Shown here in pieces: positions 10,819 through 58,972 of a stretch of 64,000 nucleotides of DNA. Location: the NCBI GenBank assembly GCA_903813345.2, contig CAIIXF020000001.1, positions 56,342,270 to 56,406,269 on the forward strand. The letters are read 5' to 3'. Origin of the DNA: Owenia fusiformis. Its lineage: Eukaryota; Annelida; Polychaeta; Sabellida; Oweniidae. The notes beneath the pieces are model-generated. The model was not told the DNA's origin, did not search any database, and saw nothing but the letters and a program-made list of their open reading frames with translations. Each line of letters begins with the position of its first letter. Position 1 is the stretch's first letter. The translations under genes were made by a program, and so were the position numbers.

Positions 10819-11364
10819 TTATCCCGTTCCCGGACTATAGTCCTGCACTGAGCGCATTCATTTGCCTGTACGATTACAACTTGGGAGAATTATCTACGCC
10901 CCTTACACTTAAGATACCTACCTCAATGCATTATTGAACTCAAGATGTAACTTCTAATATATTGGAACCGCCGATTGTCTGGGTATATCGGCAGAACGGG
11001 AACATTTTCTCTTTTTCATCGAGAGAGATTCCATCACTTTTCAAAATGGCGGTTGGATTTAAAAGGGGAATCCCCCGTTTGGCTGTCCCGGATGTAGCCC
11101 GGAAGTACCAATATGGAGGAATTTGACGGTTGAAATAAGTTAAATGTTACACGCAAATATTGCGATCAAAAACGAAAATGTCTTCGTTCTGCCGATAAAC
11201 CCAGACAATTGTGGATTCAACTACACGAAAAGAATGCTAAATTACCAAGGAATCTATTGAAGTAGGTATCTGAAGTGTAAGATCAGTAAAAAATTCTCCC
11301 ATGTTGTAATCGCACAGGCAAAAGATTGAGATGTTCACAGGACCATAGTCCGGGAACGGGATAA
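10819..11364. mobile_element. 546-bp palindromic foldback transposon, copy 2
   Basis: It is the same family as 5789-6333, with TTATCCCG inward on both ends and the same inner sequence. It is flanked by a perfect 8-bp duplication ACTGCTAG (10811-10818 and 11365-11372). The two different target sites show that these are independent insertions. Confidence 0.92.
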
Positions 11365-11372
11365 ACTGCTAG

Positions 11373-12937
11373 TGTCTTTTAATTGCTGCCCTATTCTGTC
11401 ATCAAGTATCTCGTTTATCACTTGAATTGATTCCTTGGAGATAGACTGCTGGATAGATATGAATTTTGTTTCAATTAAGGATTTTAGATACATCAGATAT
11501 GTTTGTAATCATTTTTGAAACCTGTTCTTCTTCCAGAGAATTACATTTCAATTTGAAATCAAGGTTCACAGTCCATATAGTAGTATAGTACCAGTGCATT
11601 TTTTTGGTTATTTTGCAATGTTCCAACAAGACTTTTCTTCAAACCCTGGCATTTACAAGATTACTTCAGACAAATTTCACATTGAATTTCTGACAGTACA
11701 TTGTGACAATAGTCACAGAAATCCTTGGTATATATTGAATGCCCATGGTATATGGTCCCGTTTTTGTGTTATTTCAGTGCTCTGTTAGTTGTTGAAACGA
11801 GTAACTTGTGTCCTGACTGTTTGGTACTGTCAGGTTTACTTGCAATTTAGAGGGAGGGATGTAATTTGCATTTTTATTTCCAGCACATTTGATTTTATGG
11901 GGGCTGCCATCTTGGGTTTGGGTTATCGTAAGTTGGTCTTGGTCCCTGGTTTTATGTCATGCAGAATTTTCCATTTTGTCTTGGTAATTTCCAGAATGAC
12001 TTTGGGTGTTATTAGTCTTATAAGTTATACTTGCAACGAAGCTTTGCTTAACAGTCTGGAGAAGACTAGGATTTTTTTCCCACTGGAATTTTTCACACAC
12101 TATGTCATAAAATCCTTTGTCATTGTTTACTACACTTTTCTCAGGAGTTTGTTCTGCATGGTGGAGTATGTGGCGTCCTTTTTTCTTGCTGCAACTGTTG
12201 GAGGACACTACACTTTAGTCTTCTTGTATAGAATCAGTTCAGGTATGATACAGCTAGACAGATATGTGTTGAAAAAGGCGAAACCTTGAGCTCAGAAAAA
12301 CAGTATGGCGACTAGCCTATGTCGTAAAGGTTCACCAATGTCAAAATAAAATCAATCCACTTTATCTAGTTTATAGTTAGATGTGACTATACAGGTATCA
12401 AAAGTATATTTCACCTCCTGACTGCTGAAGAAGATACTATAAACTATATCCTGGCTCTAGTCTGAGATTGTTTTGAAATTTGGAAAGAAAATATTCAGAC
12501 TATAACCCACATATGTTGAAATTTAGAATTGGAAATTTTTGTTTTACATAGGGAGTGCTATTCAAAATGATCATGGAGTTAATTAACCCCCCTGATATCT
12601 ACAGTATAAAAATGTGGACCTACTTTTTTGCTTTCTTGAAGTATTTTTTTCTAATTAATTCTAATTCTTATAAGCTTAGTAATTTTATGACAGGAAATGT
12701 GCTTGGTCTTATTGGTTTTTATTAGATAATGTGGTGTTAGATAACAGTCTGGTCTCTACATATAATATGGCAAAAATGCAGTGAAATAGACCCCAATGGT
12801 TGTAGTGAGCACCTACCTACTGATACAGTGATGTTTTTCTTGGCAAAAAATGTACACTATACACAGGTTTTACTGTACTTGTTTCATGACATTCATTATA
12901 TCTTGTAAACTGATTATAATGATTGTGATTATTTCAG
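11373..12937. other. Region upstream of PHF20, probably 5' UTR intron or promoter
   Basis: The first PHF20 coding exon opens with an acceptor AG at 12936-12937, so at least one non-coding exon must lie upstream. I could not place it. A 166-codon hydrophobic open frame (11789-12289) is the longest here but matches no family I recognise. Its T-rich composition suggests chance. Confidence 0.4.
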
Positions 12938-12941
12938 TGAA

Positions 12942-15900
12942 ATGGAGAATATAACTAACATGGAGAATGTTGGAGGAGAATGTGAAGTGATAGAAGATAC
13001 AGAATCTGATGTTATAGTCTTAGGTGACAGTCCACTATCATCCCCTATTAAACAGAACACATCTTCTAGTATTCCAATTACACTAGGTGACAGCCCCCTG
13101 ACCCCAACCAACCCCACTATAGAGACACGGACCACAAGCCGCTCTTCTAGTAGGTCCTCTCGTCATAATACAGAACATGACTTTATTGAAGCTAACAACA
13201 CTAAAGCTTCACAACAAAGCACAGACCTTGATGTTCAGGATGTAACACCTAGAACTTCGAAGAGGAAAATATCACCTTCAGTTAAAGTGCTTGAAGCTAA
13301 ATCAAGGCGGAGGGTTTCATCAGGTGATACATCAAAGGTTCCTGATCGAACTCGAAAAAAATCGGGAAATATGGCGGGGAGCAGTGAAACACGGACAGGA
13401 CAGGAAGTAGAACTTGATGTTACACCAGATAAGATGCCACTAGATCAGTCACGGAGACCTCCTGGTAGATCCCATACACAGAGTGAGAGTTCTGAGTTAG
13501 GAATGGATGAAGGGGAGGTGGTACATGCAGGGGTGGTAAATAAAAGGTTCCCTATCAGACCTGGCATCATATGGGCAGCAGGGGGAAAAGTGGAAGCAAT
13601 GGATTATCAGAAAAAGTGGTAAGTGGTGAGGAAGATCAGCAAATAATTTAATTGGTTAGATAATTCATAAATATAATATTATGAAGAAAAAACATACAAA
13701 AACATATAGTTGTCTGCTTTGCATGTTTTACATTAGGTTTCCAGCCAAGATTATGGAGGTGGATGATAAGGAGCTTGAAGTACTTATTCATTTTGATGGC
13801 TGGAACCAAAGATACGATGAGTGGATTTCCATGGATAGCGACCGTTTACGTCCAATGGCACGGCATAGTGATCGCAAAACTGACAAGGGCAAAAAGTTCA
13901 CCAAATGTTCAGTAAGTCCATTTTCAAATATCTTATTTTTGAATAAAAAAGTAATAATGATGGAATATTAATTGTGACTCACTACTTTTAATCATAATCA
14001 CTTAATAATGGCTATGTAATATGGTTTGAATTCCGAATTTCTATTTATAGTTTCTACAAGGTGATATAGTTATTATAAATATATTTTTGCGATCCTAATA
14101 AACAGACTAAAAATAGTTACCATATTGAAGTCATCTCATTTGGAAATCATCATCAAAATCAGGAGTCGTACAATAATATCAGATATGTACTTCATTATTT
14201 ACTTCTAGTGGAATCAATTGGTGTAAGGCCCCCATAGGGACCTTGCGTTTTCATACTAAAGTTCGTTTTGGAGTTTTTTCTTATTGTTCTATGTATTTCA
14301 AGACATTTTAGCCAGACATTTTAGAAAATTCAAATTTCAACTACTTATCTCACTATCACAGGCTGGTATTGAAATATTTGTCCGCTGTGACGGAGCATGC
14401 TATTTTTCATAAAAACACTAAGAATACTTCACGATTTATTTTTTAACTCATATCTTTCGTTATACCATACAAAATTACTTACTCCATGCAATGGATATAT
14501 CATTTGCGGGTAACTTTCACTTCTGTTTGAAGTCCAATTATGCTGGGAAGAAAATCTATTGAAAATGGCGCCGGAGTATCATACTTCAAAATGTACCATT
14601 TCTTGTTTAACTTTCTAATGGCACGACATAGTGACACGATAATATTTACACATGGTTTCAGCATAACTATGAAGATATAAATGAGATGTTGATGTATTTG
14701 GTCTTTTTAATTCTTTTATAAAAAATAATGTTTGATTTTTTTGTCCGCTGTGACGGAGCAGTTGCAAATGTAAACTGTGAAAATGCTCCGTCACAGCGGA
14801 CAAAAAATATTAATATTATTTTTTATAAAAAATTTAAAAAGACCCAATGCATTAATATCTCATTAATACATTCAGAGATATGCTGAAAACATATGTTAAT
14901 ATTATCGTGTCACTATATCATGCCATTAAAAAGTTAAAAAAGAAATGGTTCATTTTAGAGTTTAATACTCTGGCGCCGTTTTCAATAGATTTTAATCCTA
15001 GCGTTATTGGACTTCAAACAGTAGTGAAGGTTACACGCAAATGATATATTCATTGCATGGAGTGAGTAATTATCTTTGATATAACGAGACATATGAGTTA
15101 AAAAATAAATCGTCAAGCATTCTTAGTGTTTTTATGAAAAATAGCATGCTCCGTCACAGCGGACAAATCTTTCGATACCAGCCTGTGACTATAATTCACC
15201 AATGGAGAATGGAAGTTGAGCAACCAAACTTGGCACAAAGTTGGACCCTAAGATAAGCTCTAATCTGAGGGGTTTGATCTTTTGTGAAATCATACATTTG
15301 CCTAGCAACCACATAGCAACCATCTAAAATAACATATTTCACAATATAAATACACTTAATATATGCTAGGATGCTATAAGACTATTACAGAAAGTCTTCT
15401 TATCCTAAAATACAACAATTCAAACATATTTACAGAAGTGACATCACCATGTTGCATAGCAACAACATGGCAATAGGTTACAATGCCCATTTTGACATTT
15501 GCAGACCATATTCCGATGATATTACTCACTTGTAATCACTTTGGATCCCTTCCACATTATTTCTTAACATACAGAAATTGTGTTAAGCATAAATGATGCA
15601 GTTACGCCTGACTATTTTCCCTAGCAACTTCCTAGCAACAGCTTGAAATAATGGTTAAATTTGCCTAGCAATGACCTAGTAACAGCTTAAAATAGCAATG
15701 TTTCTCATAAAATCTCACTATATATCCACTATTATGTACTTGAAGAAAATTAATATGTATGTCTTTTAATTTATAAAGCTTTGTTGCTGCACACTCAAAA
15801 AAATCTGTAGTCTCTTGTGTAAAGCATGATGGGACATTTCTTGTCTTATGTTTATCAAATTGCAAAAGTCCTGCAATTCATGTTTCAGTTCTGAGATAAA

Positions 15901-18900
15901 GTAAACACAAAATATTCATCGTATTTATCCTTGTTACATTTTCAGCATTGATACCCCTAAGATAATACTTTATTTGGGTTAATTGCTACAATTTCCTTTG
16001 CAGTTGCATAGTTTCGGTGCAGTAGAATGCACCATGGCATTTGCAGTTCCCTTTGCAGTCACATTTGGTGCATCAACATTTAATTATGACGTTACATGCC
16101 TCAATCTGATCTGGTTACGCACAATCCTGATGTGCTCCTAAACCATCCCCATAGGTTTGATGAAGGAAGAACTGGATCCACTATATACCATTGCCCCCAT
16201 ACATGTGCTCCTTGGAGAGTTGCTCGCATGACATGATAGAGTGCTGCATCGCATGTTGGAGGTACTCTATCGGGATCCATCTGTCATGATTGAACATGTG
16301 CCTTTGCATGGTATTGAGATTTGTCTCACTGTTTGTAGGCTGGTAAACCAGGATAATGAACCTCTCAATTATGCCCACAACTTCTGTTGTTACGGTTGAT
16401 GGGCGATCTGCTAGAGTCAAAAGGACACCTGTTAGATCATTACATAAGTTCCATTGCTTGAAAACTGTCACCTTGCTCTGATGGTAAAGTCCAGATGTGG
16501 TATCAGTTTCAGTATGGGCGTGGAACATTGGCCTAGTGCTCTAGCAATCTCATGAACTGGAATGTAGCGATACATTTTGCATTTTGAAAATGCGACATAA
16601 ATATCAATCTGTAGCTCAGAGGCACAAGCTATTAGGCTATCACATCATTACTGTCCACCGATCTTATCATAAATGTCCTGCAACCTTTTCCGACGCCATG
16701 AGACACATGCAAAAACATATATGTATCTGCCTCATGACATTGTTAATTTTCCACATTTGGATAATAATATTCCACTGAACCCAGCATATGGGGTTTGTGT
16801 ATCCCAGCAGGGCGTGTTCAAAATACTAGTATATACATTTTAAATCAAGACACCATATTTTACTGATTAAATCGTTAGGTCAAGGTTATACTTGTTAAAA
16901 GCTTAAAATCCTATCTGAGCTTTGCTGAAACATACAAGTCATTAATTTCAAAGTTTCAAGTTTTACCACTTGAGATGCTGAAGGATGTAGGAATTGTGCA
17001 AAGAGCTCTATCTTTCAAGAAAGTCTTGCCCATTGCTTGGTAGTTTGGTTTTAGGATAGGATTTCTCATAAACAATGACAATTTGTCTCAACCATTGAAG
17101 GAGAGTGCATGAGTAATCCTGCTAATTATGCCATAATAGTCCCTGCTCCCAGGAAGAGGCAGATACACATATGTTTTTGGATGTGTCTCATGGTGTTGGA
17201 AAAGGTTGCTGGACATTTAGGTTGCAGGACATTTATGATAAGATCGGTGGACAGTGATGTTGTGATAGCCTAATAGCCTGTGCCTCTGAGCTTCAGATTG
17301 AGATCAAAAGGCAAAACTAACGCTACATTCCAATTTATGAATTTGCTTGAGCACTACACTGCCAATGTTCCATGCCCTTACTGGAACTGATACCATATCT
17401 GGATTTTACCATCATAGCAAGGTGACAGTTTTCAAGCAATGGAACTTACGTAATGATCTTACAGGTGCCCTTTTGACAAGAAGCACATGTATGGGGGCAG
17501 TGGTATATAGTGGATCCAGTTCTTCAAGCCTATGGGGATGGTTAAGGAGCCCATCAGGATTGTGGGTGTCCAGATGGACAATATTGCCCAAGCGTCCAAA
17601 GCATGGAAAGTCATAATTAAATGTGGATGCACCAAATGTGACTGCAAAGGGAACTGCAAATGCCATGGTGCATTCTATTGCATCGAACTATGCACCTGTA
17701 AAGGAAATTGAAGCAATTTACCAAAATAAAGTATTATCTTAGGGGTATCAATGCTGAAAATGTATCAAGTATCAATGTGTGATGAATATTTCGTGTTTAC
17801 TTTATCTCAGAACTGAAACATGAATTTCAATTTGACATACAGAACAAATGTCCCATCATGCAAGAGACTAAAGATTTTTTAATGAGCAACTATAAATTAC
17901 AAAAGACATATATATTGATTTTCTTCAAGTACATATAGTGGATATATAGTGAAATTCTCATGAGAAACATTGCTCTTTTAAGATGTTGCTAGGTCGTTGC
18001 TAGGCAAATTTAACCTTTATTTCAAGCTGTTGCTAGGGAAAATGGTTAGACATAACTGCATCAATACATTTGCTATATGTTAAGAAATAATGTGGAAGAG
18101 ATCCAAAAACAGTGAACATATAATAGATATATGGTCTGCAAATGTCAAAATGGGCATTGTAACCTGTTGCCAAGTTGTTGCTATGCAACATGGTGATGTC
18201 ACTTCTGTTAATATGTTAAAATTGTTGTATTTTAGGATAAGAATACTTTTTTTTTGTAATGGTCTTATAGCATCCTAGCATATATTAAGTGGATTTATAT
18301 TGTAAAATATGTTATTTTAGGCGGTTGCTATGTGGTTGCTAGGCAAATATATGATATCACAAAAAATCAAAGCCTTAAGATTAGAGTTTATCCTAGGATC
18401 TAACTTTGTGCCAAGTTTGGTTGCTCAATTCCCATTCTCCATTGGTGAATTATAGTGAGATAAGGAGTTTGGAATTTGAATTTTCTGTTAAGATTGTGTT
18501 AAAAAGCAGAAATAACAGGTATCCTGTAAAATCTCAATTATTTTTCTAAAAAGGGCTTTAGAAAAAGGGCCCTGTCTCTTAAATATCTTTAAATACATAA
18601 AACTATAAGAAAAAGCTCAGAAACAAACTTTAGTATGAAAATGCAAGATCATTCGCCAATTGATTCCGCTATTCTAACTAGATTATTCAGCCACATATAG
18701 GGATGCAAGTCATAATTAAAATTGAGACAAATTAAGTCAAGTAGAATGTTATGTTCCAGGAATTCAAGCCAGGTGAACAAGTTTATGCTAAGTGGACAGA
18801 CTGCCGTTTATATCCTGCTAAAGTTATTGGACTTGACAGTAGTTCAGGTTAGTTGATCACATGTCACTTAATGTGCGACTTCGAAGATCCTCATTCAAGG

Positions 18901-21900
18901 ATGATTTTATTTTTCAGTGTATCAAAAAGATATGAGTATGGAATAATTAAGACTTACTTTTGTAAGTTGTACGAATCTGCACAGATCAATATTGACATGT
19001 AATTGTATAATTGTGATATGAAGCCATACGTTGTATATTGTTTTTCAAGAAATCCTCAAAATATTTGTTTTCCCATATAAGGGTCATATTATGGTTTATT
19101 TGTTAACAGGGTCTTACCATGTGAAGTTCTATGACGGCTTTTCAAAGTTGGTAGAACCCATGAACATACGCACAATGACAGCTGAACAGAGGAAAGAAAG
19201 TGAACCACTTATCATGCCGGCCACAGATGCAATTAAACCTAGAAGTGCAGAGAGTAAGTTGTATTGAGAAAGGCACAATTTTGAATTCCTTTAGTAAATT
19301 GTCAGCTTATTAATGTGTCCATACAGAAAATATTACAAGTTCTTCCCAGCTTCATGTAAAAACATAATTTAATCAGGGGCAAAAGTATTTCTGAATATTT
19401 AGAGTGGGCAATATTAGCCAAGTCACAAAAGAAATCACCTGGTTCTATCAGTTCTATTATGTAACCACCACAGTTGGACATATTGTTATTATTTACAACT
19501 TTTTGTGGATAGTGTTTGGCAGTTGGTGTTTGGCATTTGGTGGTCAGGGTTCAGCATCTGTAACAAATGGCAGGTGGTGACATATTGCATGTTATTGCCT
19601 TGTTCCTTCTATGTTCTGTTTTATAGCTCTTTAAATTCCATTTTTCATTGATAGTTAACTCCAGAATTTCATGTTTTTCATACTTCTCAAATCCTCTTGC
19701 ATTTTCAAATCTCTTTCAACATTTTTCATTTGGCTCCACAACCAAAGACCAAAGATGAATTAGCGATGTTATGTTCAGTTCTAGTATGTCTAGTATGTCA
19801 TGAGATAGTTTATTTGCACTTTAGTCTTGGCAAAGAAGCCTTGCCCAAGTCGGTATTTTTTTTTTACTTATCTGATCTTGAATTATTACTGCCTTGCACA
19901 ATATAATGCATCATCGCTGATATTATGATAAGTTATTCAGTGGTTTCGAGTTTTCGATAATTCCTATGCTGTCAGGGGTATCGCGAAACCGTATTGAGAG
20001 GCAAGATTGTGTGGACACGACGTTTGACTTCAGGCTGATTGACCAATCAAAATGTTATCAGGTTTACCTGCATAAACAAAGCAAACTACCCGTCTACGAC
20101 TTGAAATTTTCATCAAATATTTTCTGATCAAGTATTTCTTCAGAGTTACAATACATTCTGTAATTAATGTACATTGGAATGTAAGCAGGCATTACTATAA
20201 ATTAATTTAATGTTGATTTAAAACTGAATTCGCGATGAAAATGCACGAAGACTAGTCCATATAGTCGTCGATCTGATTCAGTGATTGATCGGAATCTCAG
20301 AGATCGTAGCTATCATGTTTGATCATTACAACGATCTTTTCAACGTTTCTTGTTGAAATCTTCTCGCCTCCGGGTATCCGATCGATGCCACCAAACTCTG
20401 ATTGACATTTATCTGGTTAAATATTTGTATTTCCATAATGAATTGTGCAAGATTTGTTTGTGAAAAGTGTATTTGTTTTGACTGTGCATAATAATTAGCT
20501 AACGATGCAGGGCCATTTTTTGATTGGTCAAATTTATTGGGTCGGTAAAGCACGTGGCTTTCTCATTGGTACAAGGCGGTCATAATAGAAATCGAGATAA
20601 GTAAAAGAGACCAACTTGGGCAAGACTATTGGTAAAGTAGATTCTGATTAAAACCTTTATTGTTCAATTAAAAATCAAATAAACATAATAAAATAAGGAA
20701 CTGTTTTCAGAAAAAAGGCTATCTACTGACAAGGAGTCCCCAGTATCATCTGATAAAGAAAAACCTACATTGACTGATAAAGAAAAACGCCTCTCTATTG
20801 AAAAAGAAAAAAGACTTTCCATTGAAAAGGAAAAGAAACCATCATCTGAAAAGCGATTATCAACAGATAAGGATAAAAGATTATCATTAGACAAGGAAAA
20901 GAGATTGTCGACTGATAAAGCTCCACTTTTAGAAAAGGACAAAAAATTGACTTCAGACAAAGAAGTGCGGCTTTCTGCTGGGAAGGATAAGACAGAGAAA
21001 CCAAAAGCTTTGGGCACCCCAGTCAAAAAAGGTATGATGTACGATAATCAAGGTATGCACAAAAGCAATATAACATATTCAGAAATCATGCATAATCTTG
21101 TATTATATAGGATTACTTCATTTTTTCATTTTAAAGTAGTTGTTTTTATGTTAAAATAACAAATTGATTTTGTTTTGCAATATTTCGATTTATTCTTTAA
21201 ATCTTTTTCAAGCAACTGAAAATTGTTGCTATAATTATGACATCATAGACTAAAACAATAGAACAAATAGACCATTATGTAATACAGGTATTTTACAGGT
21301 AAAGAACTCATTAAATTGCATTACCATAGAAACCTAATTATAAAGCACACCTGAATATCATCATAAAGCAATTTAGAATAATCTTGTAATTGTGACATCA
21401 TAGATATAAACAAAAGAGCAATTTAATTTTGATATCATACAGGTATAAGACAGGTAGATTTTAAAATTAATTATGACTTAAGTGTCATAGAAACCATATT
21501 AAAACATTTTTATATTTCTACATTCCTGAATTTATATTTAAACCACTAGGGGCTAGGGTACCTAGTTTTTTTTATCCAGAAAGCTTCCCTAGTTCTTCGA
21601 AAATGTACATTTTTTGAACCAAGGAATTCAATAGCAACTATAGAAACATCATTTATTGAGTGCCCTTTGCTATTGAAATGATTGGGGACTACCTCATCTT
21701 TGTTATGACATAACAACTGTTAGGCTTGAAAAAGATTTAAAGAATAAATCGAAATATTGCAAAACAAAATCAATTTGTTATTTTTTCATTTCAAATGATA
21801 GGCATTCCAGTAAATTTTATTTTTTGCCAAGCTTGGTAATTTTTAAAGTGGTAGTTTGGGGTTTTCCGTCTAAAACCTTTTGTATAAAGCTTTGTTTTTT

Positions 21901-44956: not shown

Positions 44957-47900
44957 TTATGCATTGACAATAGAGTCATCTTTAAGAGGATCCCTCAAGT
45001 GTTTCTTCTCCAGTGTTTCCTCGCTGCTCTCTGTAAGTATGGTCTCTGCCTCCTTGTCCTTGTTACGAGCCCACTCTTGTTCCTCTCCCTTGGCGAACAA
45101 CAAGAATGTCAATGCCCCAAGGCCATACATTCCAGCTGTTATGAAAAACACTTTCTGCCACTGAGCTTGCGTCGGCTGTGAAAAGTTAAAAACAATGATT
45201 TTAGTGACAAGGAGTTATTAGAAAAGCATACTGACAATTTTAACCAACAAATAAATGGTTACCTAAAGTATTTGAGACTGAAATGATGTGAATTAACCTA
45301 AATGGCAAAATGTATCTGTTTAGGTTGTAATTTTATCACACATCTTCATTAAAGAGGCAGTACATTGTATATACAAGTTAATTGCACCAGCTCATAACAT
45401 TTCTATCATCATGCATAGCTTCAAAATACCAAGGAGTTCTGACTTGCATTTCAGGATGAAGAAAATGCTTTGATTTTAAAAGAATATTTCGCAATAATTC
45501 TATAAAATCAGGTCATGCCTTTTTTCATTCTTATTTCTGAATTTAGATATTTCTGAATCTTAAATAATGATATTTTCTCGACAATTTCCATTTAAGTCCA
45601 TTGGCAACCTTAAAATACCTGCTTTTCTTGTGCCACCAATTCCCCAAAAAAAATTATGAATAGAAAATTGAGTTGTTAAAAATAACCCCATCCTCTCATA
45701 CCTGTCCATTTGTGAGATACCCCACCAGGTAAGGTCCTACCATCCCACTTATGGTAGACAAAGTGTTAGCTAGACTCATAGTTGACCCTGAAGAAAACAA
45801 CCAATATGTTTAAATTGAGGTACATCTTATATGAAAAGCATTTAGATTCAATGCGTTTGATTGAATTTGTATATCAAGGGTACAACATTTATAACAAATG
45901 TTTGTTTTACCCTTGATATATGAAAATCTGTACCATCATCAGCTTCAAAACTAAACTAGACAACAGCAACACCAAAACGAAGCAAATCCCATCGAACAGC
46001 CATGGCTGTCATTTTTACAAACAAAGTATATAGACAAAATAGCCGCCTTCTACCAAAAGTGTCATTTAATAGACAGTGTGCCATGCTTATAGTATTCATA
46101 TACCAAATATGAACAAAATCGTTCCACTACTTTTCGAGTTATAGTAAAATATGTTAAAATGACGGCCATTTTTCAAAATGGCTGCCTTCTTCCAAAAGTG
46201 TCACTAGACAGTGTGCCATGCTTATAGTATTCACATATACCAAATATGAACAAAATCGCTCCACTACTTTTCGAGTTACAGCAAAAATCGTAATATAACG
46301 AGTAAAGGTCACCATTTTTCAAGATGCCTGCCATGTGCTTCTTTACTCTACATTTCTAGCTTTATTAATGTCCTATAGAATTTTTACAATTAAAATACAT
46401 GCTATTACAGTTTTACATATTGCATCTAAATTACTGTAAAATCGGCACTAAAATGGCCGGCATTTTTAAATAAGTGGCCATTTTGAAAATCAGTTTTCGA
46501 GCAGAACTTCTACCCCCATTGGGTATATTTGTACAAAATATGAACAAAATCGGGCCAACGGTATTCAAGTTATTGCCCGAACAGACGGACAGACGGAGGC
46601 GTTCCCTATATCCCTCCAAACTTTGTTTGATGGGATAAAAATGCTACGGGATAGCTATATTACTGTCAGTAATCCAATCAAATGTCTTACCTGAAAATCT
46701 TGGGGCAATATCCAGATGGTTCACCATATAACCAGGTACAGATATACCACTCATTGCCAACGCTCCCACCAATAGGACAACAGGGACCAAGTAGTCACAG
46801 CCTTTATAAAACCCTAGCACCACCAGGAATGATCCTGCACCACCCATACCTTAAATCAATGCATAATACTGTTGAAGCCTATGTATCTGTATGAATGTAT
46901 AATACAGCTGAAGCATCACTGTTAAAGCCTATGCATAATACTGGTATATCATGTAAAATGCATTTCACATAGTAATCACTCTTAATTTTTTAGATTCAAA
47001 AGTGAAATTTCAAATAATAAAAATTTCTTATTTTTACATATGGAATTAATCACAGAAAATAATTCATGTAACAACTACTGTAGTTATCCATGACTGTTTA
47101 ATTCTATCTAATATACAGAACCTTACTTAAATGTTATTCAATACATAACCACAACGCTGGACTAATACTCCAAGTTAGTCTCATGCGGTTTTGAAAGTAA
47201 AACAATAAATACAATGTTAGGAGTTAGGAGTTGTCTCAAAACTTTCGCACTAAATTCTACATGTAACTAATTTTATTAATTGCTAAATCACCTAGTCACC
47301 CTTATTACTGAAACACTTCTTGGAAGTGCATTAATTCAAACAAGGTTTTCCCAAAATGATCACATTTAGTGAGAGCCCTCAACCACCCAGGCGCCAAAAC
47401 CAAACAATTTCTTGACATTGTATGTAGTGTTTAGTGCAAACGTGAGAGTGTCTTACCTAGAGTGTTAAACAGTTTTCTTGCATTTCTGGTGCGAAGAATG
47501 CCATGTTCTCTGATATAGTCAGCAGGATAGATGATCAATAAATTCACAAAGAAGTTGACCAACCAAGGCAGAGATGAGAGAAACCCATTCTACAAATAGA
47601 AGTGTCATTTCAATAACTATTTAAAGTACTAATACTAAGTGCATTTATTTACATCAAGGTTATAGAATCAGAAATTGAGAAATCTATGAATGTGAGTGCC
47701 TATAATATAGGGTGTTCACTAAGTAATGACACTACGTCACCCATTTCTACAGTTTTTAACCAATCTTTAATATACTGCTACTGGTTAAAAACATATATTC
47801 ATATTTTATTTATTGTAAATAATGTCTGACAATTTCAGTGAGATTCTATAAAATTTATTTGACCATCAACATTCTCCAGAGTCATGTCACAGTCAGATTC

Positions 47901-50900
47901 AAATACTTCATCCTCATCAATTCATCATTCTCAAGATTTACATTCACACCCATTCACATTCTCATCCTCAGAAATTTATATACAGAAAAATCTGTATCAG
48001 TGGAACACCTTTGGTACCTCTGGTACCTTTGGTGTTCCACTTGTGAGGTGTTTCACATACAGAGGTTCATTTAACACTAAGTCAGTTGATCTTGGGGTTC
48101 TAAAAAGTGTTCCACTTTGGAGGTGTTCCACATATAGAGGTTCATTTAACACTAAGTCAGTTGATCTTGGGGCTCTAAAAAGTGTTCCACTTGGGAGGTG
48201 TTCCACTTATACAGGTTCATTTAACATTAAGTCGGTTGATCTCCGGACTCTAAAAAGTGTACCACTTACAGAGATGTTCCACTTAACAAATTTCACTGTA
48301 TATATCTTTGCAATCTTTGAGACAAGAAATTCAAACATAATGAGATTCCAATATCATATTCCAACAGTTTCATTGGTCCACATTACAAGTCACACTCAAA
48401 TTATACAGCCAATGGCATTGTTTCATAATTCATCTAAAACAGTTTTAAAGGGTGACGCATATCGTTTAGCAAATCGAACGCTCGTTTCTGGTGTTGCTCA
48501 CCATTTAGTATAAAAGGCTCGATCCCGGAATAATACTCAAGGGTTCAAAGGCTCGAGGTCGTTGTGTCAACACCTCTAACTTTTATATAACATTGGTACA
48601 GTTTAGATCGTCACACATTTATAAAAGGGAGATTTTCATTTTAACAAATATACGGGAAGCTTATCGGAACCCTTTAATCACTCATTTATTACATAAACAA
48701 GGTTAAAGTAATATGCAGTTAATTATATTTTGCGAAATGTCAAAGTTTGAATAGAAAATCATGCATTAGAGTGCACCAATAAGGCATGCCAATAGCCTAC
48801 CAAATGAGCTAAATAGTTTTCTGATTTTTCCAGTGTCAAGGATCTTATTTTGTCTCATGTAGTCTATTGGAATCGCTGCAAGAACTGAGGTTAAGGTCCA
48901 AAACAAGAATGGAGCAGCAGAAAGCAAGCCATTCTGTAAGTTCATATTCAACATTTACTCTGACAGGCCCAGTGTTTTCCTCAGAATTTTTTTCTCAAGT
49001 AGGTGCAAAAATCTTGATTTCTTAATTTAGACCAAAATTGGTCAAAATATGCCTATTTTTCATGACTTTTCTCTTCAAGTGGGTGCAAATTGATACTCAG
49101 GTGGGTGCTGGCGTATTTTTAAATTCTCATGAGGGTGCTGCGCCTACTTGCTTTAATGCTGGGGAGATCACTGAGGCCTGTATGACAATTGACTCATAAA
49201 CTGATTCGGAAATTGCTCATGGCGAAAGAGAGGTTCAACATTTTACAAGATGAAAGTATACTGATATCCATTTACATGTGAAGTAATAATTAACAATCAA
49301 AAATTCTGAAACCACCAATCTTTTAATGCACATTCAGTTTAAACACAGGTTCTAACCATAATACCAAAAGTATGCTGGTTGGTATCATAGATAAGGCTTG
49401 GAGCTAAATCAATTAACAACATGGTGATGATCAGCTCAACAAGGATTCTAAAATGCTCAGGATATGAAAAGGTCTTGTATTCACCAGTAAGTTTAGACCT
49501 TTACAAAATAAATACACATAGGAACATATTGCGCCACTTAGCAAATAATAAATACCTCTGCCAGACAATCTAACATGTAATATGTGTATATATTTTTTAC
49601 CTTTGTCATATCAAAGTGAAGCACTTGTTTCATGTATGTTGGGAGACATGTCATCAATGTGTAGAAACCAAAGTCATCACATATGGTTGCCACGATAATG
49701 GTCCAAACAGGCAATGAGGTCATCATGGCCAACCATGGGGTGGGAGGGGGCTGGAATATTTGTAGTATCAGATATTAAAGTAAAGAATATACCTATGGAC
49801 ATAATTTAACATATAAATTACATATCATCCTTGACTATTTCTACAATTTAAATGCATTATATATAATAAAGCAATATTTTACTATATTTGTCTGCACCCT
49901 CTAAAGACAAGTATTTGGCAACATTTTCATACAGACTCGCTACAATTTATGTATAATGTGAAGAGTTTGAGATGATCAAAACTGCATGACAAACCAGTTG
50001 CAATGTTATTGTTCTATGTTTAATTAAAAATAAATAAATAAATAAAAAATCAGCTTGTCTGGGTGGCCATAACTCAAACCGCTATATACATGTATGTACA
50101 TAATCAATCCACCCACCTTCTCATGCTTGACTGTACCCAAAGAGCTCTCTATGAAGAGTCTTTCGTGAGTTGAGATTAATGGATGACTAGAAGGACAGCT
50201 GTAGACAAGGAAGCACCAGGCTATGAACCACACACAGGACACTGCACCTACAACCAAAGAGTCAACCAAGGAGTCATGAGGTTGAATCAAGAGAATTAAG
50301 TGTTCATGATTAAGATGGAAGGCACATTGACATTTTTGTATTCCTGGGACTTGTCATTACATAATCAGTGAATTTTATTTTGAGAAGGATGGTCAGAGGT
50401 TCATAAATTCAACTATACATGTAACTGATCGCTTATTATGACAAATGATATCTACTAGTATTTACCCGACACCGTAATTTTCTGTTTGGTGATTAAAAAT
50501 AACATGCTTTTGAAAAACATAACTGTTAAATTTTGTAATTGCAAGAAATGCTGACATAGGAAAGAAAGATGCATAAATATCTTTACTTAATGACATATGC
50601 TGAAAAATCTAGATTCAAAGCAATATAGTACATGGAGCAATATTCAAAGACCAATCACATCTGTACTTCTATTTTATCTCAAATTCATTCATAAACAGCA
50701 CAGCAGATTGCAAAATTACAAACTTTAGATTGGCAGATCATTATCTTTTTAAAACTAATAAACATAATGAAATGAAAAAGCCAAAGGATGGAAGATTAAA
50801 GTGAAACACGACATTCAAGAATTGAGAAAAGAAACCACTTCAACTGCAAAAAAAAGATTCCCTCCATATTACTTTTTTAGCATTGTACTTCTGCTCTGAT

Positions 50901-53655
50901 TTGCAGAATGGAATGGAAGAAATTCCTTACCAGTGCAACCTCTACTATTCTGGCTCAACAGAATATCTTTATCATGTAAATACATTATTTTACAAATGAA
51001 TAGGAAATAAATAGGCTAAAAAATCATATTTAAAATTTAGATAACCTGCAATTATGGCAATTCTATTGGAGAAAATAAAATCAATAATTTTATTTTACAC
51101 TATCTGTCCTGGAACAATTTATGTAAGTAGTGTTACTAATTAAATGACTAATCTAACATAGTTTTAAGAGACATACATAATGTTTTGTAATAATGTTTTA
51201 ATGAAACAGATGATCTAGTGGCATGTTGCACGCATACACATTTTTTAAGAATATTAACGCATACACATTTTTAAGAATATTATGTGAATACATACCAAAT
51301 ACATAAAAGACAGAAGGCCAACCCCCGGCAAACCCATAGTCACATAAAAGGCCTGATACAGGCTGACTAATGATGGAACCAAAACTACAGCCTAAAATAG
51401 ATAAGAACATGGAATTGTATTGACTCCCTGAAGTGAATTAAACAATAGTTATTGTGACATCTCGTCACATGGCCAGGGATTTTAATAACAAGGTCATTAA
51501 TTCAATTGAGATATAATTGCATATATCATCTGGTGAGATATTTTTAATTGTACAATTAATCATTTTAATTTTTATTTTTTATTTTTTATTCCATTCCGTG
51601 CCCAAGTTAGCTTTCCAGATCAGCAGTCAGAAAAGGGGCTAATCTGGTTTTCTTAACCCCAAGAATGCATAAAAGATGATGGTTCCCTTTAAATAAATGG
51701 TATCAAATCTGAATTGATGTACACAATTGAAAAATGTCATAATAGTATAGAATTGTATTTAATAGCCTCTCTACCTGCAGTGACAATGCCTGCAATCTTG
51801 CTTGATTCTAGGGGAGGACACCACTTTCCTAACAATGCCCACATGGCAGGGAACAGCACACCCTGCAATGCAGTAAAATAATGCCTTGAAATACTCCAAA
51901 CTAAGTAAAGATATTTAGGCTGTTAAAATTGTCAAACTTGCAAAACTTCCCTCTTTATTCAGATTTGAAGATATTTGAGATACAAAGAGAATGATGCAAG
52001 CCTAAGTTGATAGAGTGGGGAGGGGGGGGGGGTTGCACTTTTCTGGCATTCATCTTTAAAACTTTTTTTCAACTAAAACACCTCACAATATTACACAATT
52101 TAAGAACATACATGTTGCTTCAAACTTTAAAAGCCAAGTAAAATTACTGACTGATATATTATTGATTTCATTCATTATTATAATTCACTAAACTAGCAAT
52201 AAGGGCAATATCCATTATGCTAATGAGTAGTTCCATAATTTTTGGAACATGAGGAACCAGTTCCAAAAGTCAGTTTCCAAAGGTAACATTGGACAATTGG
52301 GACAATAATCCCATTCAGTGACAGTCCTCCTTTATTGTAGTTTACCTGAGCCATTCCTTCTAGTACTCTTACAGCAATAATCAGATCTACACTTATCCTA
52401 GCTAGTACAGGGGTCAGCATTGACAAGAGGGCAGGCACAAGGACACCAATGCCAAATATCCACTTCCCACCATATCTAAAACATAGCAAGTTTCATGTTT
52501 TAATTTCAATGGTGGTTTTGACTTCTGTCCAATTTGATTAATACATGCAGGATGCATATGATAATGCAAGCTATTGACTATTCATCTTTTGTACATTGCA
52601 AAGACAATGGAAGTCAAATTTGGGAGGTATATAGAACAAGCACTATTTTTACCACAAAGTTAACAGATGCTAGAATGACTATCCTGGCTAACCTTGCTAT
52701 CTATCTTAGCAATCAATAATATAACACTTAGCAATACAATAGGACCAGATAAGGAAATTCATGAGTAATTTCTTGAGGCACTCACCTGCTTGCAAGCCAA
52801 CCTCCAGGAACATTTGTACATATGTAGCCATAGAAGAATGAGCTGAGTAAGACACCTTGAGTATACTCAGTCCAGTTAAACTCCCCTGCCTAAAAAAAAT
52901 CAAAAACAATGTTCTTAAAAATGTATTAAGGTTCCTTTGTTAGACAGAATTTGCAATAAATGCTTGATATCTCATTAATTACAATAAGATACAATGGACT
53001 TTTGTGGCCTAAATAAATGAATTATTTGTTCATCTACTAAGAAATACATTAAAAGTAGAAAATTGCAAGAATATGTATAAACTAGATAACAGCATTGCCA
53101 GGGTGTTGCAAATCCCATATATAACAGCCATGGCTTCCATTTTTACAAAATCCCTCTCCTAACTTTTTTAGTTATATCAAATATTGTAAAATAAGACACA
53201 TAAAAATGGCCACCATTCTTTAAAATGGTCGCCAAATTGTCATAAGAAATTGTAATACTGATGTTGGTCCAATGATATATGAGTTATTGCCCAGACAGAC
53301 AGATGTACAGATGGATAGATGGACGGACGTATAGATGGAGCCAGTCTCTATATCCCCCATCCTTGTTTTTGGGATATAAATCAACCTACCTGAAAGGAAG
53401 GGAAATTCAGGTTTTTTGATCCTCAGGTTTCATCAAGGGTCACTTAACCTTGTACCTGCAGTGCACCTACCTTAGCTGGTTCAGCTGTGGAATTTAGATT
53501 CTTTGGTACAGGACAATCATCTGATGTCACATTATCAACTGTTGTGTAGTTAACCATGGCAACTAAAGCTACATTGAAGTTAACTCTCAGGGAATATGCC
53601 GTCACGAACCCTAGGAAGCCCATTATGGCCAGAACATACCTCTGTGCAAGACCAC
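44957..53655 (-). CDS. SLC17A5-like: Sialin-like SLC17 anion transporter, near complete, 11 exons per transcript
   Basis: Exons in transcript order: 53471-53655, 52786-52889, 52346-52475, 51775-51862, 51296-51391, 50117-50247, 49601-49750, one of 48801-48933 or 47457-47589, 46691-46849, 45702-45787, 44957-45175. The sum is 1481 nt (492 aa plus stop) and every junction is in frame; human sialin is 495 aa. This is an MFS fold with about 12 helices. TM1 has Y-S-L-R-V-N, keeping the conserved arginine. The large lumenal loop bears N-glycosylation sites N-Y-T, N-V-T, N-S-T and N-W-T, then Y-G-Y-I-x-T-N-V-P-G-G. TM4 region reads G-V-L-F-P-A-M-W...P-P-L-E-S-S; then C-L-P-T-Y-M-K, V-N-H-L-D-I-A-P-R-F-S-G and F-A-K-G-E-x-Q-x-W-A. 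Relatives carry sialic acid, glutamate or phosphate across lysosomal, synaptic-vesicle or plasma membranes; the substrate here is unknown. The first exon with the start codon, which must end in phase 1, was not found. Which SLC17 member is meant is uncertain. Confidence 0.88.
45945..46640. repeat. Interspersed repeat family A, copy 2
   Basis: It shares 'aacagcaacaccaaaacg', 'gccatggctgtcattttta', 'accaaatatgaacaaaatcg' and 'gggccaacggt' with copies at 4328-5015 and 53083-53380. It ends in 'cagacggacagacggaggcg'. Inside it a block of about 120 bp ('ttccaaaagtgtca') is duplicated. It lies in an SLC17 intron. Confidence 0.65.
47457..47589 (-). CDS. Alternative exon 8b of the SLC17 gene (mutually exclusive candidate)
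   Basis: This 133-nt exon enters in phase 0 and leaves in phase 1, with good acceptor (TTTGTAG) and donor (GTAAGA). It encodes 44 residues starting N-G-F-L-S-S-L-P-W-L and ending R-K-L-F-N-T-L. The start matches human sialin (N-G-F-L-S-S-L-P-Y-L) more closely than 8a does. It covers the helix after the central cytosolic loop plus the following short loop. Confidence 0.85.
47995..48300. repeat. About 75-bp tandem repeat, 3-4 copies ('gttccactt' type)
   Basis: The units contain 'aggttcatttaacactaagt', 'cagttgatcttggggctc' and 'gtgttccactt'. Starts near 48064, 48140 and 48215. It lies between the two alternative SLC17 exons. Related 'gaggtgttccacttacgg' sequences occur at 56735-56820 and 57420-57610. 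The 209-codon frame 47884-48513 is produced by this repeat and is not a gene. Confidence 0.8.
48801..48933 (-). CDS. Alternative exon 8a of the SLC17 gene (mutually exclusive candidate)
   Basis: This is 133 nt, the same length and phases as 8b, with acceptor CTTACAG and donor GTAGGC. It encodes 44 residues starting N-G-L-L-S-A-A-P-F-L and ending R-K-L-F-S-S-F. Shared with 8b are N-G-x-L-S, P-x-L, P-x-D-Y-x-R, I-L-x-T and R-K-L-F. Using both or neither breaks the frame downstream. Confidence 0.85.
53083..53380. repeat. Interspersed repeat family A, copy 3 (partial)
   Basis: Matches 'agataacagcattgcc', 'aacagccatggcttccattt', 'aaaatggccaccatt' and 'ttattgcccagacagacag'. It is shorter and more diverged than the other two copies. 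It lies in the first recognised SLC17 intron. Confidence 0.6.
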
Positions 53656-55158
53656 CTGAAATAAACAATCAGTTCTGGTTCTTTATAGACAAATACAGTG
53701 GTAGAATTGTCAGAAAAGATAATTTAATAATAAAGACGAAATATTTTTTTGCAGATGCACAATCATGATACATATATTTTGTTATGATTTGGAATGAGAG
53801 GCCAATAAGATTCACATGCCATTAGAAGTCCCATCTTGTCTTTTTAAACCCCCTTTATACCAGAACTTCAAATCTCTAATAATTGAAACTTCGCTCCTAA
53901 TCAACATGATAATCACATTAAAATATTTTATGTTGCAGGAATTTTTGGAATTTCATGGAACATTCAATGGAATTTGCATTACCTGCATATAAGCCAAATC
54001 TTGATCAAATTCGCAAGACAATCACACGAATCGTGGGACTGTGGACTGTCCTGGCAGTAATACAGAAGAAAATCTTCTGCAACACTTTTGGAGTATTTTC
54101 GAAAGAAACAAAATGGACCATCTTGTATATGAAACAAAGGATTCAAATGCGAGAATCTAGGAATTTGGACACTAAAAAATCTAGGGCCTAAGTTCATCAT
54201 CATTCCTCATTTTAAATACACAATTTTATCAACTTTACTGATCATAATATCGCGGGTCAGTACAAGAAGATAAAACATGAACATCAACAAGTTCATGAGC
54301 TAAAAAACAGTAATAAAAAGGTGAAAAGACAGTACATGTATAAGATTAAGGCATGGGTGTCAGGTAGTGAGCCCTAGTCTTGAACTGTCGAACACTTTGA
54401 TGTTGGAGCAAAATAATTAATCAATAATTTGTGTGACTTTGGTAAGTATGGTTACCCAGATAAGCCAGGAAAGCGTTTCCCGCAATTTGCTAGCTATTAC
54501 AGTCGAAATGTTCTGACATGTGCAAAGCTCTATTTAGTGATATTTTCATTTCAAATATGGCGGCCAATCCGATGTCTGACCACCCTTACAAAGAATCTAG
54601 GCAGTGTGCATTTTTACCTCCTGTGAAATAACAAGTGGAATTTAGTAGTTGTTTTTTGTTTTATTATCATTCTGCATCATAATTCTATGTGATGTGGTGT
54701 TAAAATGTCAGCAGAAATAAATATCCATACGATAATCGAGTGAATTAGATAACAGATTTTTCGAAAACCGTCTCCTGCTAAATGTGTAAAAACTTGTATT
54801 AACATGCTCAAAAGTGCCAATGTGCACATCAATGTCAAGCTAAATCAATGTTGTGTCCAAAACAGGTACCTGGTCTACTCAAAACAGCTTGTCATTCATG
54901 TATACATGCTTAGCAAACACAGCGAAATGATCTGAATCTTGGAATTTCGTTCGAGAGCCAGTAATGTTTGCTCCGGTCTCCGTCATAAGTGTTCATTAGA
55001 CTTCACACATGCTCGGGAGAAAACCATCAACCGATAACGTTTATAAATCAATTTCGCGCATGCGCCTTACAAGGGTAAAGAAATTTGTATTTATAAACAA
55101 ACCAATTTGAGATGACCCGATATCAGTCGGAGAAATCTGGCGATCTACGAAACTCACC
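53656..55158 (-). other. Upstream part of SLC17 gene; candidate non-coding first exon ending at 55158
   Basis: The missing SLC17 first exon should lie at or beyond here. A strong minus-strand donor TTGAG/GTGAGT ends at 55158, but in the frame needed for 53655 it meets a stop (TGA), so it could only be a 5' UTR exon. At 54425-54510 a sequence similar to 8053-8130 ('gccaggaaagc.tttccc.ca') marks another dispersed repeat. Confidence 0.3.
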
Positions 55159-55390
55159 TCAAAAAATCAAATGCGGACTGACGGCGTATTCTACTATGCC
55201 GGGATCTAAGATTTTCAGTATAGATAAAGTCTTTTATGATCTCTCGAATGAGGTAAGTCACTAGTTCGAAAGACGATCGTATCAACTTGAACAAAAGTTG
55301 AGTTTTGAAGAAAAATTTTAACATGCGCAGAAGTCCCATTTTCGTTGTACCATATTAACTGATTATATCTACGACTGTGTTAGATGGTGA

Positions 55391-55444
55391 ACACCGCCTC
55401 TAATGTGTTCGATTGTCGTATGGAATTGCATTAGAGGCGGTGTT
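55391..55444. repeat. Short perfect-stem hairpin
   Basis: 'aacaccgcctctaatg' and its exact complement 'cattagaggcggtgtt' form a 16-bp stem around a 22-base loop. It lies between two candidate first exons of SLC17. It could be a tiny MITE or a cruciform. Confidence 0.75.
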
Positions 55445-55574
55445 TATCCTTGTAAATTCATGCCAATCTAAGTTTTTCTTGACAGTTCACTTTATTTTAA
55501 TCTTCTGCTTAGAATCTCTGCGTCATTTATAGAGAAATATAAACAAAATGGATACATTGATGATTTATACAAAA

Positions 55575-58205
55575 ACCAGGTACCGGGTAGTAAATCCTCC
55601 ATGCTGGGTTCAAACTTGGTACCCGGTCGAAAAAACCGGGTACCCAAAAAAACGAAAAATATGAATATATAACATAATAATTAGATCATTAGAAAACGTG
55701 TAAGATTTGTTTTGAATTTACAAAAATGTATGTAACTTCCTTCAAAATTGAGCTAGAAGCTTCTAATAAAAAGCATTTTAAAGCTCTTTTCTTCCTCTAT
55801 CATCATGGTCATATTTTCATTGGTTATGGCGGCGGGGGGGGGGGGGGGGGGGGGGGGCGATTTGACGATTTGAAAAACATGACAAATCAATCTTACTCTA
55901 TTTTCAATAGCTCGTATGTTGGTACGTGAATTGTTTTGATTATGATTTATGATTGTTTAGATTATGATTTAAATCTGTAAATAGCTATCGAGGTGAGGTG
56001 TGTTAATTTACATGATGCAACGTGTAAGATTTTGATTATCAATCATAATTTAAGTTATCCCAATTTCTGTTGAAACGTCCACTGAAGTGTAAATTGTTAC
56101 ATCTTACAATGTATTAGGCGTAGCCAGGAAGGGGTGCGATGGTGTGATCACCCCCCCCCCCATAACCAATGAAAATATGACCATGATGATGATAGAGGAA
56201 GAAAGGAGCCTTAAAATGCTTTTTATTTGAAGCTTCTAGCTCAATTTTGAAGGAAGTTACATACATTTTTGTAAATTCAAAACAAATCTTACATGTTTTC
56301 TAATGATCTAATTATGATATACAGGGTGTTCAGGAATAAAGATAATAATGTCATAACTTTTTTATTTGTTTATGGATTGCATTGAAAGTTTCAGAGATTA
56401 TAGTTTTAACATATTTTACCATATTGTTGGGGTTTCAGCTTCAGGTGATTTGATTGGTTGATTCTGTGGTTGTCAAAGCAACGCGAGTAGCGCTAAGGCG
56501 GGCAGGTGGAATAACTGTTTATGACTTAAAATGGATGTTTAAAGATAGTTATAACTATAAGCCTGAAATTCGTTGCCAATTTATCAATTTATTCTATATA
56601 ATTTCCTCAATTTTAGACACAAAGTCTTTGCCTCTTGAACCTTCTTCAAACACTTCACAGAATTCTTCTTGACTCATTTCCTGAAGTCCGTTTAACACAT
56701 GTGAACGTATGGCATGGGTATTCTCAAATGCATGTACAGTAGAACCTGTGTAAGGAGAACACCCTCCGTTCTGTCAAAAAACGTTCCACTTAGGAGGTGT
56801 TCCGCTAACGGAGGTTTTGCGTTCGCGGGGATTTTAAGAATATACAAGAATAAAATATAGGATTTATATATATGACTAAATATGATTCTCTCCTTCATTG
56901 CAGAGCAGGCATATACTATTAATAATCCATTTGTTTTACTCAAATAGGTATCTGACATTCATAATCCTACTCATTCTGCCAAAAATGTTTTCTGACATTC
57001 TAAATCCTCCTCATTCTGCCAGTCTCAAGTAAAAAGATTTCTCAATTAAGTTTTAAAGATTTGTACCTACTGCTAATAATACAATTGTTTTTAACTGACA
57101 TTCTTAATCTTACTTATCAAGTTTGAAACAAACAGCAAGGGGTATCAATTAGTGATAGGATCACATGTCCATCTCTACAGGAGGTTAATCCAATTTTCTG
57201 AATGATAATCCTATGAAATGCTAATTTCCTAATTATCAAACTAATTAGTGGTTGCATCACATGTTGACCTCTATAGGAGGTTATTCCAATTCGCTGAATT
57301 GTAATCAGTTCAAATCCTAATTTGTCATTATCACATTATTACCTGTTTTCATACTCATATATCACTGTAGGAGATTAATTCTGTTTAATACATGTGTCAA
57401 TATTGAAGTTTATGGAAATTGACTGTTCCACTTAGCAGGTTAATTTTTCAATATTGGGTGTTCACTGTTCAAGTTTGGAGATGTTCTACTTACAGAGGTT
57501 CAATTAACATTAAGCCAATAGGTTTTTAAAACGGGACTTTGAAAAAGTGTTCCACTTGCGAGGTGTTCCACTTACGGAGGTGTTCCACTTAGCAGGTTCT
57601 ACTGTACTCTTAAGTTACGTTTTGATTCAGCGAAGAAGTATAAATCATTTGGCGCTAGGTTGGGTGAATAAGGTGGATGCTTGAGTTGATCTACTCTCAG
57701 CTGATCAATTTTTTTTAGTGATTATGGCAGCAGTATTGGAGGGGGAATTGTCCAACGGGAAGAGAAATTGCATCCTGGGTCGCTTTCTTTGTAATGCCTG
57801 CATTAAGTCATGAAAATCCCATTGAATATCATTAAAAAAGCATTTTATTTGACTTTTATATCATAAAACAAAACAATAGAAGGATTTTATCACGGAGATG
57901 CACCAAGAAAGCTTTAAATATGGAGTCAAAATCGGTTTGCCATGCTAAATGTAACACAGAAACTACTGTAGTTATTCCATGTGCCCCGCCTTAGCGCTCT
58001 TTGCGTTGCTATGCCAACTACACAAATGACAAATCAAATCGCTTGAAGCTGAAACTCCAAATAAAGTTTAAATATGTTGAAACTACAATCCCTGCAAATT
58101 TTATTGAAATCCATGAATAAATAAAAAAGTTATGACATTATTATCTTTATTTCCTGAACACCCTGTATATTCGTATTTTTATGCACCCGGTTTTTTCGAA
58201 ATGTA
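55575..58205. mobile_element. Palindromic element with 'ccgggtaccc' ends, interrupted by a mariner copy
   Basis: The left arm runs from 'accgggtacccaaaaaaac' (about 55637) through 'attagatcattagaaaac' and 'gaagcttct' to 'ggttatggc'. The right arm starts near 56157 ('cataaccaatgaaaatatg'), runs to 56320, and resumes at 58167 ('attcgtatttttatgcaccc', 'ggttttttcga'). The centre holds a run of 24 G (55834-55857) and a matching C run near 56150. The gap in the right arm is the mariner element. Confidence 0.8.
56321..58166. mobile_element. Mariner-type element, decayed, with about 190-bp inverted ends
   Basis: The ends are ACAGGGTGTTCAGGAA and its complement TTCCTGAACACCCTGT, flanked by TA, and extend about 190 bp inward ('cgctaaggcgg' / 'ccgccttagcg'). 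On the minus strand at about 57622-57675 the frame P-Y-S-P-N-L-A-P-N-D-L-Y-F-F appears, the C-terminal DD34D-type mariner signature. The remainder is decayed and interrupted by 'gttccactt' tandem repeats. Its insertion splits the palindrome at 55575-58205. Confidence 0.85.
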
Positions 58206-58281
58206 TAGTACAGTAGGGGACATAAAGAATTACAAAAGCTATGAAAATTACATGCTGTCGCACATGTAATAAATTCTTACC

Positions 58282-58972
58282 TCAGTGTATTCAGTGCTCT
58301 ATTTTCTCCGTCCTAGTAAGTCCAGATATAGTGGAATTCGTGTCCATAATAACAAATAAGAACTTAAAAATTTAAAGTGGAATTCACACGTTAATGCTGA
58401 CTCTTCAAATGTTGAGGTGATTTTGGAGCCCGATTACGCCCCAATGTGGATTGGCTCCCAGAATGCAACATGACACGTGTCAGCTTTCAAAATGGCGGAA
58501 CGGCATCTGTCACGAGTAAATAAGGTTACCTGATGTTGCATTCTGGGAGTCAGTCCTCTTTGGATCACAAACATGGCGATTCATGGAAACATTCGTTCGA
58601 TTTGGTAGGGATTTATCCATCATTTGCAGGTATGAAGCTTTGGATTCATTTATTGTGCTACTTAAAGTAAGCGGGAATTATTTTTCTACCACTTGGGAGA
58701 GTTTGAGACACGAAACTTAGAATTTAGCTCATTGTGACAACTTTTGAGGGTTGAGATTTATTTTTGTCCCCCATTTTAGTCTACTGGTTGCGAAAGTGAA
58801 TGAAATCAACGCTGTGGAATTAAAAGTATAATAAAAAAATATATCAACAAATATTATTTATCATACTTACATGATTTTCTTGTTTTAGCGCCTAAAAGTG
58901 GAGTTTCTTCATTAGACTCAACTTTCACGGTGTCTGACATTTTGGACACCAATGTGACTGTCACGTGATAGG
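58282..58972. promoter_or_regulatory. Candidate divergent promoter between SLC17 and NRBP
   Basis: A minus-strand donor CTGAG/GTAAGA ends at 58281, and a plus-strand donor AGG/GTAAGT ends at 58972, so non-coding first exons may leave in both directions. Between them are an inverted pair CTCCCAGAATGCAACATGA (58455-58473) and complement (58531-58549), a GACACGTGTC palindrome, 'aaaatggcggaac' (YY1-like) and a TCACGTGA E-box near 58960. The GC content is locally raised. Promoter function is inferred. Confidence 0.4.

Follow-up and report, generated by a model that had tools for sequence, protein, structure and literature searches.

Tandem duplicated exons that substitute for one another are described for human and fly, where adjacent homologous exons are used one at a time as mutually exclusive exons (text portions of PMC9741552 and PMC5740500). 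The cases named there include the solute carriers SLC12A1 (in the text of PMC9741552) and SLC39A14 and SLC25A3 (in that of PMC5740500). Here we describe two copies of one exon, 9a (A) and 9b (B), in a transporter gene of the SLC17 family on a stretch of 64,000 nucleotides (the window) of the annelid Owenia fusiformis, which probably form a mutually exclusive pair that arose by tandem duplication. SLC12A1, SLC39A14 and SLC25A3 are likewise solute carriers with mutually exclusive exons; the swapped exons of SLC12A1 and SLC39A14 encode membrane segments and alter affinity, and the folds of all three are unrelated to that of SLC17. The two exons resemble the human and fly cases in being adjacent and homologous, whereas one-at-a-time use is known there and is predicted here from sequence (PMC9741552, PMC5740500). 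The name SLC17 is absent from the main texts, as distinct from the gene tables, of these two surveys of human events, in agreement with an earlier sequence-only reading of the window, which knew of no such pair in vertebrate SLC17 genes.

The window lies on C1, one of the 12 chromosome-size contigs C1 to C12 (31.9 to 62.2 Mb, ~477 Mb together) of the 498.3-Mb genome searched, in which C13 has 0.66 Mb. Similarity search against the PDB using isoform A revealed human sialin (8dwi) with an E value of 1.2e-116, VGLUT3 with 1.2e-100, and VGLUT2/3 with 9e-99 or better; by BLASTP, isoform B is 43% identical to human sialin (8dwi) and 37% to VGLUT3 (9wix). The best NCBIfam model is TIGR00894 (E 1.5e-135 and 2.2e-137), but the scores of 452 and 458 bits are under its curated cut-off of 626 bits. 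Given the full-length similarity to sialin and VGLUT2/3, the predicted 516-residue product is an SLC17 transporter. The gene and its parts, with exons 1 to 8 and 10 to 12 taken from the gene model, are as follows.

44957..58940, minus strand: SLC17-family transporter gene of 12 coding positions, the ninth present twice; one open frame, all junctions GT-AG, stop codon read
58871..58940, minus strand: exon 1, with the start Met
53471..53655, minus strand: exon 2
52786..52889, minus strand: exon 3
52346..52475, minus strand: exon 4
51775..51862, minus strand: exon 5
51296..51391, minus strand: exon 6
50117..50247, minus strand: exon 7
49601..49750, minus strand: exon 8, ending in phase 0, the upstream partner common to A and B
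48801..48933, minus strand: exon 9a (A), 133 nucleotides (nt), transmembrane helix (TM) 8 and TM8-9 loop, the less family-like copy
47590..48800, minus strand: intron between A and B, 1211 nt, with a repeat inside
47457..47589, minus strand: exon 9b (B), also 133 nt and encoding TM8 with the TM8-9 loop; closer to the family than A
46691..46849, minus strand: exon 10, TM9-10 (inferred topology), starting in phase 1, the downstream partner common to A and B
45702..45787, minus strand: exon 11
44957..45175, minus strand: exon 12, with the stop codon

Both copies are entered in phase 0 and left in phase 1, with AG before and GT after, and the introns at A and B are all GT-AG. The acceptor and donor borders are cttacag/A and TTTG/gtaggc for A, and tttgtag/A and CTAG/gtaaga for B. 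Splicing in A only or B only yields 516 residues in either case, without a premature stop. With both included, translation would end within B at residue 386, 62 nt ahead of the next junction; with both skipped, it would end at residue 330 of the product, within exon 10, 123 nt ahead of the following junction. As these stops sit more than 50 nt before later junctions, both transcripts are candidates for nonsense-mediated decay. The sequence-only reading had given the same coordinates, the 133-nt length and the phases of both exons, and had proposed that only one-at-a-time use gives a full protein; all of this is borne out.

The two segments are homologous, as had also been claimed. They are identical at 18 of 44 residues and at 70 of 133 nt (53% of the DNA), with 23, 30 and 16 of 44 bases alike at the first, second and third codon positions, and their alignment scores 84 with BLOSUM62, a value that none of 100,000 shuffles reaches (maximum 32), which rules out chance similarity. 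An assembly duplication is ruled out as well by the 53% DNA identity and by the dissimilar intron flanks, where 18 of 60 and 23 of 60 bases are alike. The nonsynonymous (dN) and synonymous (dS) divergence by the NG86 method is 0.63 and 1.54; judged by this dS of about 1.5, the duplication is old. Alignment to human sialin places both exons on TM8 and the cytosolic TM8-9 loop, in line with the claim that they encode the same helix and loop. A profile built from A, B, human sialin and VGLUT3 matches only A and B in the 64-kb window at E<1, that is, no third copy of exon 9 was found.

Constraint on the two copies was judged within one genome, against a table of 15 other family members comprising 13 paralogs (C1_21.785 left out), human sialin and VGLUT3. 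Seven columns carry one residue in at least 14 of the 15 members, and A and B each keep seven of seven; outside these columns the two copies are identical at 11 of 37 (Fisher P 8e-4). The mean hydropathy of the helix is 1.8 in A and 1.55 in B. Indirectly, the retained family residues, together with the simulations of neutral decay described below, point to protein-level constraint on both copies. A and B also share departures from the family: the Gly of column 20 (13 of 15 others) and the Ser/Thr of column 33 (15 of 15) are absent from both, and both have at column 22 a Pro found in none of the 15 others. The shared Pro suggests that the duplication took place inside the lineage of the window gene, and hence that A and B have a common origin there.

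The meaning of the swapped segment was considered on the human sialin structure, with column 1 set to N327, a numbering that puts 14 of 14 residues named in the structure paper on the right letters. According to portions of that paper, TM8 is kinked at S332, and its cytosolic end swings by >12 Å around this point; L309 is held by Y335, the cytosolic side is sealed by D350 and R353 together with K197 and S196 of TM5, and a further seal joins R195 and Q273 (PMC11116495). The equivalents of D350 and R353 are present in A and B, and those of S196 and K197 lie in the shared part, whereas sialin R195 is replaced by Ser. Exon 8 carries the sialin TM7 positions Y306 and L309, here Y and M. The S332 position is Ala in A and Ser in B, and the Y335 position is Phe in A and Trp in B. 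Compared to human sialin and VGLUT3, the window gene belongs to the same family, possesses the same TM8 segment and keeps the gate Asp and Arg, but in both of its exon copies a Pro precedes this Asp by two positions.

Family conservation along columns 9 to 27 follows a helical period (permutation P 0.03 for the moment at 100 degrees). Columns were assigned to the conserved face when they lay within 85 degrees of it, a cut-off picked after the data were seen and applied to small numbers. None of the eight such columns between 9 and 23 (9, 12, 13, 16, 17, 19, 20 and 23) is identical between A and B, compared to three of the remaining seven (10, 18 and 22). We infer that the isoforms, while keeping the gate, differ in helix packing and hence in gating or coupling. 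That differing helix faces alter substrate or gating, as the sequence-only reading had supposed, is plausible from the human structure paper; a change of substrate between the isoforms is possible but not indicated.

We propose that only one of the two copies, 9a or 9b, is spliced in between exons 8 and 10, and that transcripts with both or neither copy would reach an early stop and be degraded; such decay of wrong combinations would suffice for exclusivity. The two resulting proteins would share the gate residues (the Asp and Arg equivalent to human D350 and R353, and their TM5 partners Ser and Lys) but differ on the family-conserved helix face, so that the difference should lie in gating, rate or coupling and not in the basic fold. 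B appears to be the default-like copy and A a derived, probably regulated copy, perhaps under tissue control. In 15 comparisons with family members, B is the nearer copy in 11, ties with A in two (VGLUT3 and C7) and is the more distant copy in two (C6_7.35 and C1_21.77); we expect B to be the default and A to be regulated.

Several observations weigh against this reading. A has the fewest donor consensus matches of 12 donors (5 of 9, compared to 7 of 9 for B) and the fewest pyrimidines of 12 acceptors (8 of 17 before the acceptor, compared to 10 of 17 for B), as in a rarely used or dying exon. The 1211-nt spacer makes crowding of splice sites unlikely as a means of exclusion, and complementary elements in the three introns are not above shuffles (22, 5 and 25 of 40 shuffles reach the observed ungapped runs). 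Besides crowding and intron pairing, exclusivity is known to be enforced by a mix of U2 and U12 introns; those at A and B are ordinary GT-AG introns. Trees of the exon, whose 44 residues are too few for a decision, disagree: A and B group together with FastTree (0.836) but not with IQ-TREE. By the energy of pairing to U1 (-7.7 for A and -9.4 for B), however, the donor of A is not the weakest, since four others in the gene are weaker (exon 6, -4.8; exon 1, -5.0; exon 8, -6.8; exon 11, -7.2).

The few donor matches and pyrimidines of A, together with its lower family likeness, would fit an old duplicate that is no longer spliced in, leaving B as the only copy used. An unconstrained A at this divergence should, however, have lost its frame, splice sites or key residues, and it retains the seven near-invariant residues and a hydrophobic helix. 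Neutral decay was simulated from B by substitutions only, in 20,000 runs per branch length, a run being counted as kept when the frame, both splice sites and the seven residues survived. At a branch length of 0.38, half of the observed A-B divergence, 11 runs were kept, and none at 0.5 or 0.76; shorter branches leave more survivors (278 at 0.2 and 42 at 0.3). Altogether, we regard such a relic as unlikely. Quite unlikely is a pair that mainly sets the amount of protein, in which both or neither copy gives an unproductive transcript and the isoforms are functionally equivalent: the positions of the two early stops relative to later junctions would suit it, but it would have no need of a strongly diverged yet constrained second copy, and none of the eight columns near the family-conserved helix face (delimited post hoc) is identical in A and B.

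Tandem clusters of SLC17 genes elsewhere in the genome, on C12, C7 and C1, lend some weight to A being the remnant of a second tandem gene whose other exons were lost. Against this, A fits the frame of its neighbours exactly, and tblastn found no convincing second copy of the other exons in the window at E below 0.5. The weak matches concern 14 residues of exon 5 at 19488-19529 on the opposite strand (E 0.087), 16 residues of exon 11 at 615-662 (E 0.44), and cross-matches between the places of exon 4 and exon A (E 0.37). The sequence-only reading had named a second neighbouring gene at 48801-48933 as what would overturn it; both exons fit one frame on the same strand, and we consider such a remnant highly unlikely. 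The mutually exclusive pair is the reading we favor, and it would probably provide the animal with two transporters that are identical except for one moving helix.

Paralogs were located by genome searches with the window protein and exon A; 27 paralog stretches were taken, and 34 stretches plus the window were scanned with the profile. The scan (E<1) revealed one exon 9 in each of 14 paralogs, whereas the window gene has two; in comparison with the paralogs checked, the duplication is thus peculiar to this gene. The edges of exon 9 were read by eye in 13 of the 14 (C1_21.785 left out). AG stands directly before the first codon in all 13, which marks exon 9 as an old, conserved unit, and GT follows in phase 1 at the end of the match or a few codons beyond in 12, the remaining one (L011) having GC. 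The sole further match at this threshold, a second one to exon 9 in L013 (23 residues, ~10 bits, E 0.12 and 0.27 in two scans), has no splice sites and was rejected. The check for duplicated exons left out the SLC17-like places C1:7843877 and C1:44823103, a second C7 gene present in part only, a second C486 copy and two intronless C6 genes; the stretch C12:36490000-36499500 holds exons 2 to 6 only.

Of the earlier label “sialin-like”, membership of SLC17 stands, but human sialin is closer to other genes of this genome. Over the same columns without exon 9, identity to human sialin is 55.1% for the paralog at 20.6 Mb on C12 (C12:20.6) versus 47.9% for the window gene (363 columns), and 53.9% for the C10 gene versus 46.5% (297 columns). 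Of the other 12 paralogs, eight are no closer to sialin than the window gene is, and four are slightly closer; C12_8.95, C12_8.98 and C12_36.53 are nearer by about 2 points, and C12_8.89, which is equal, is counted as level. The paralog rows hold only columns matched to the window protein, which flatters all paralogs alike. In the family tree, the C10 gene groups with sialin (0.80) and a C6 gene with VGLUT3 (1.00), whereas the position of the window gene beside C12:20.6 is unsupported (0.087).

In human sialin, E171 and E175 form a putative proton-sensing pair. The window gene keeps E171 but has Gln for E175 (the last codon of exon 4, 52346-52348), as well as N for S61, whereas C12:20.6 keeps both glutamates. 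The E175 site could be read in five of the 14 paralogs, the matched stretch ending before it in the other nine; it is Gln also in the C6:7.35-Mb and C1:21.77-Mb paralogs, and Glu in C12:20.6, C10 and the VGLUT-like C6:9.04. The gene is therefore neither the closest to sialin nor a carrier of the complete glutamate pair, and on these alignments it is an SLC17 member near sialin rather than its closest relative in this genome. Exon 1 has E-E-T-P-L-L aligned to D-R-T-P-L-L of human sialin, where this motif acts as a lysosomal sorting signal.

The C12:20.6 paralog (C12:20624600-20650000) is the closest of the 14 to the window gene, with 54% identity over matched exon columns, and has a doubled exon of its own. 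Its exon 10 lies at C12:20628803-20628958 and 20628213-20628368 (4204-4359 and 3614-3769 of stretch L003), in copies of 156 nt each with phase 1 to 1 and GT-AG borders, alike at 27 of 52 residues and 89 of 156 bases and encoding TM9-10 (inferred topology). Both genes thus have a duplicated exon, but exclusive use would be enforced by the frame at exon 9 of the window gene and not at exon 10 of C12:20.6, since 156 nt is divisible by three: with both copies included the segment would be present twice, and with both skipped it would be missing. We consider this exon 10 a second candidate for an exclusive pair. A doubled exon 12 on C7 (L005 4039-4188 and 4891-5064) was rejected as such; its copies are nearly the same DNA by eye with a simple repeat between them, and it is therefore read as a recent duplication.

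Other features of the family and the window were observed in passing. Two long uninterrupted SLC17-like frames, C6:24333992-24335194 and C6:27813619-27814845 (580 and 462 residues), are 32% identical to the window protein and are either intronless members or old retrocopies. The 62-kb contig C486 holds two copies of one SLC17 gene, at 9919-18545 and 40,185 bases on, with identical search scores, owing to either a recent duplication or an assembly effect. The repeat in the A-B intron (48032-48267) contains GTGTTCCACTT three times at a spacing of 75 nt and has inverted ends near 47972-48309; it may be a short DNA transposon. In intron 1, at about 56750-57610, lies a longer element whose ends look similar, as judged by eye only. 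An open frame of 216 codons on the plus strand (47863-48513) runs through the repeat and bears no sign of a gene.

The mechanism of exclusive exons is already known, and the SLC17 pair would be a new instance of it; in paper listings searched for exclusive exons combined with sialin, SLC17 or major facilitator transporters, or for SLC17 combined with exon duplication, no such pair appeared. That two close paralogs each carry an exon duplication, at neighbouring positions, suggests that this gene family has used one device repeatedly. More tentatively, and as a possibility rather than a probability, the animal may tune its SLC17 transporters by splicing alternative helices of the C-domain; this would concern TM8 in the window gene and, as an independent case, TM9-10 in its close paralog. 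If so, one gene would give rise to transporters with different gating or ion coupling, a use for which no counterpart in the major facilitator fold was found in these searches. If both isoforms are made, they would constitute a natural controlled swap of one moving helix, with the rest held constant, in a structurally described fold, and the role of TM8 in sialin and the vesicular glutamate transporters would become directly testable.

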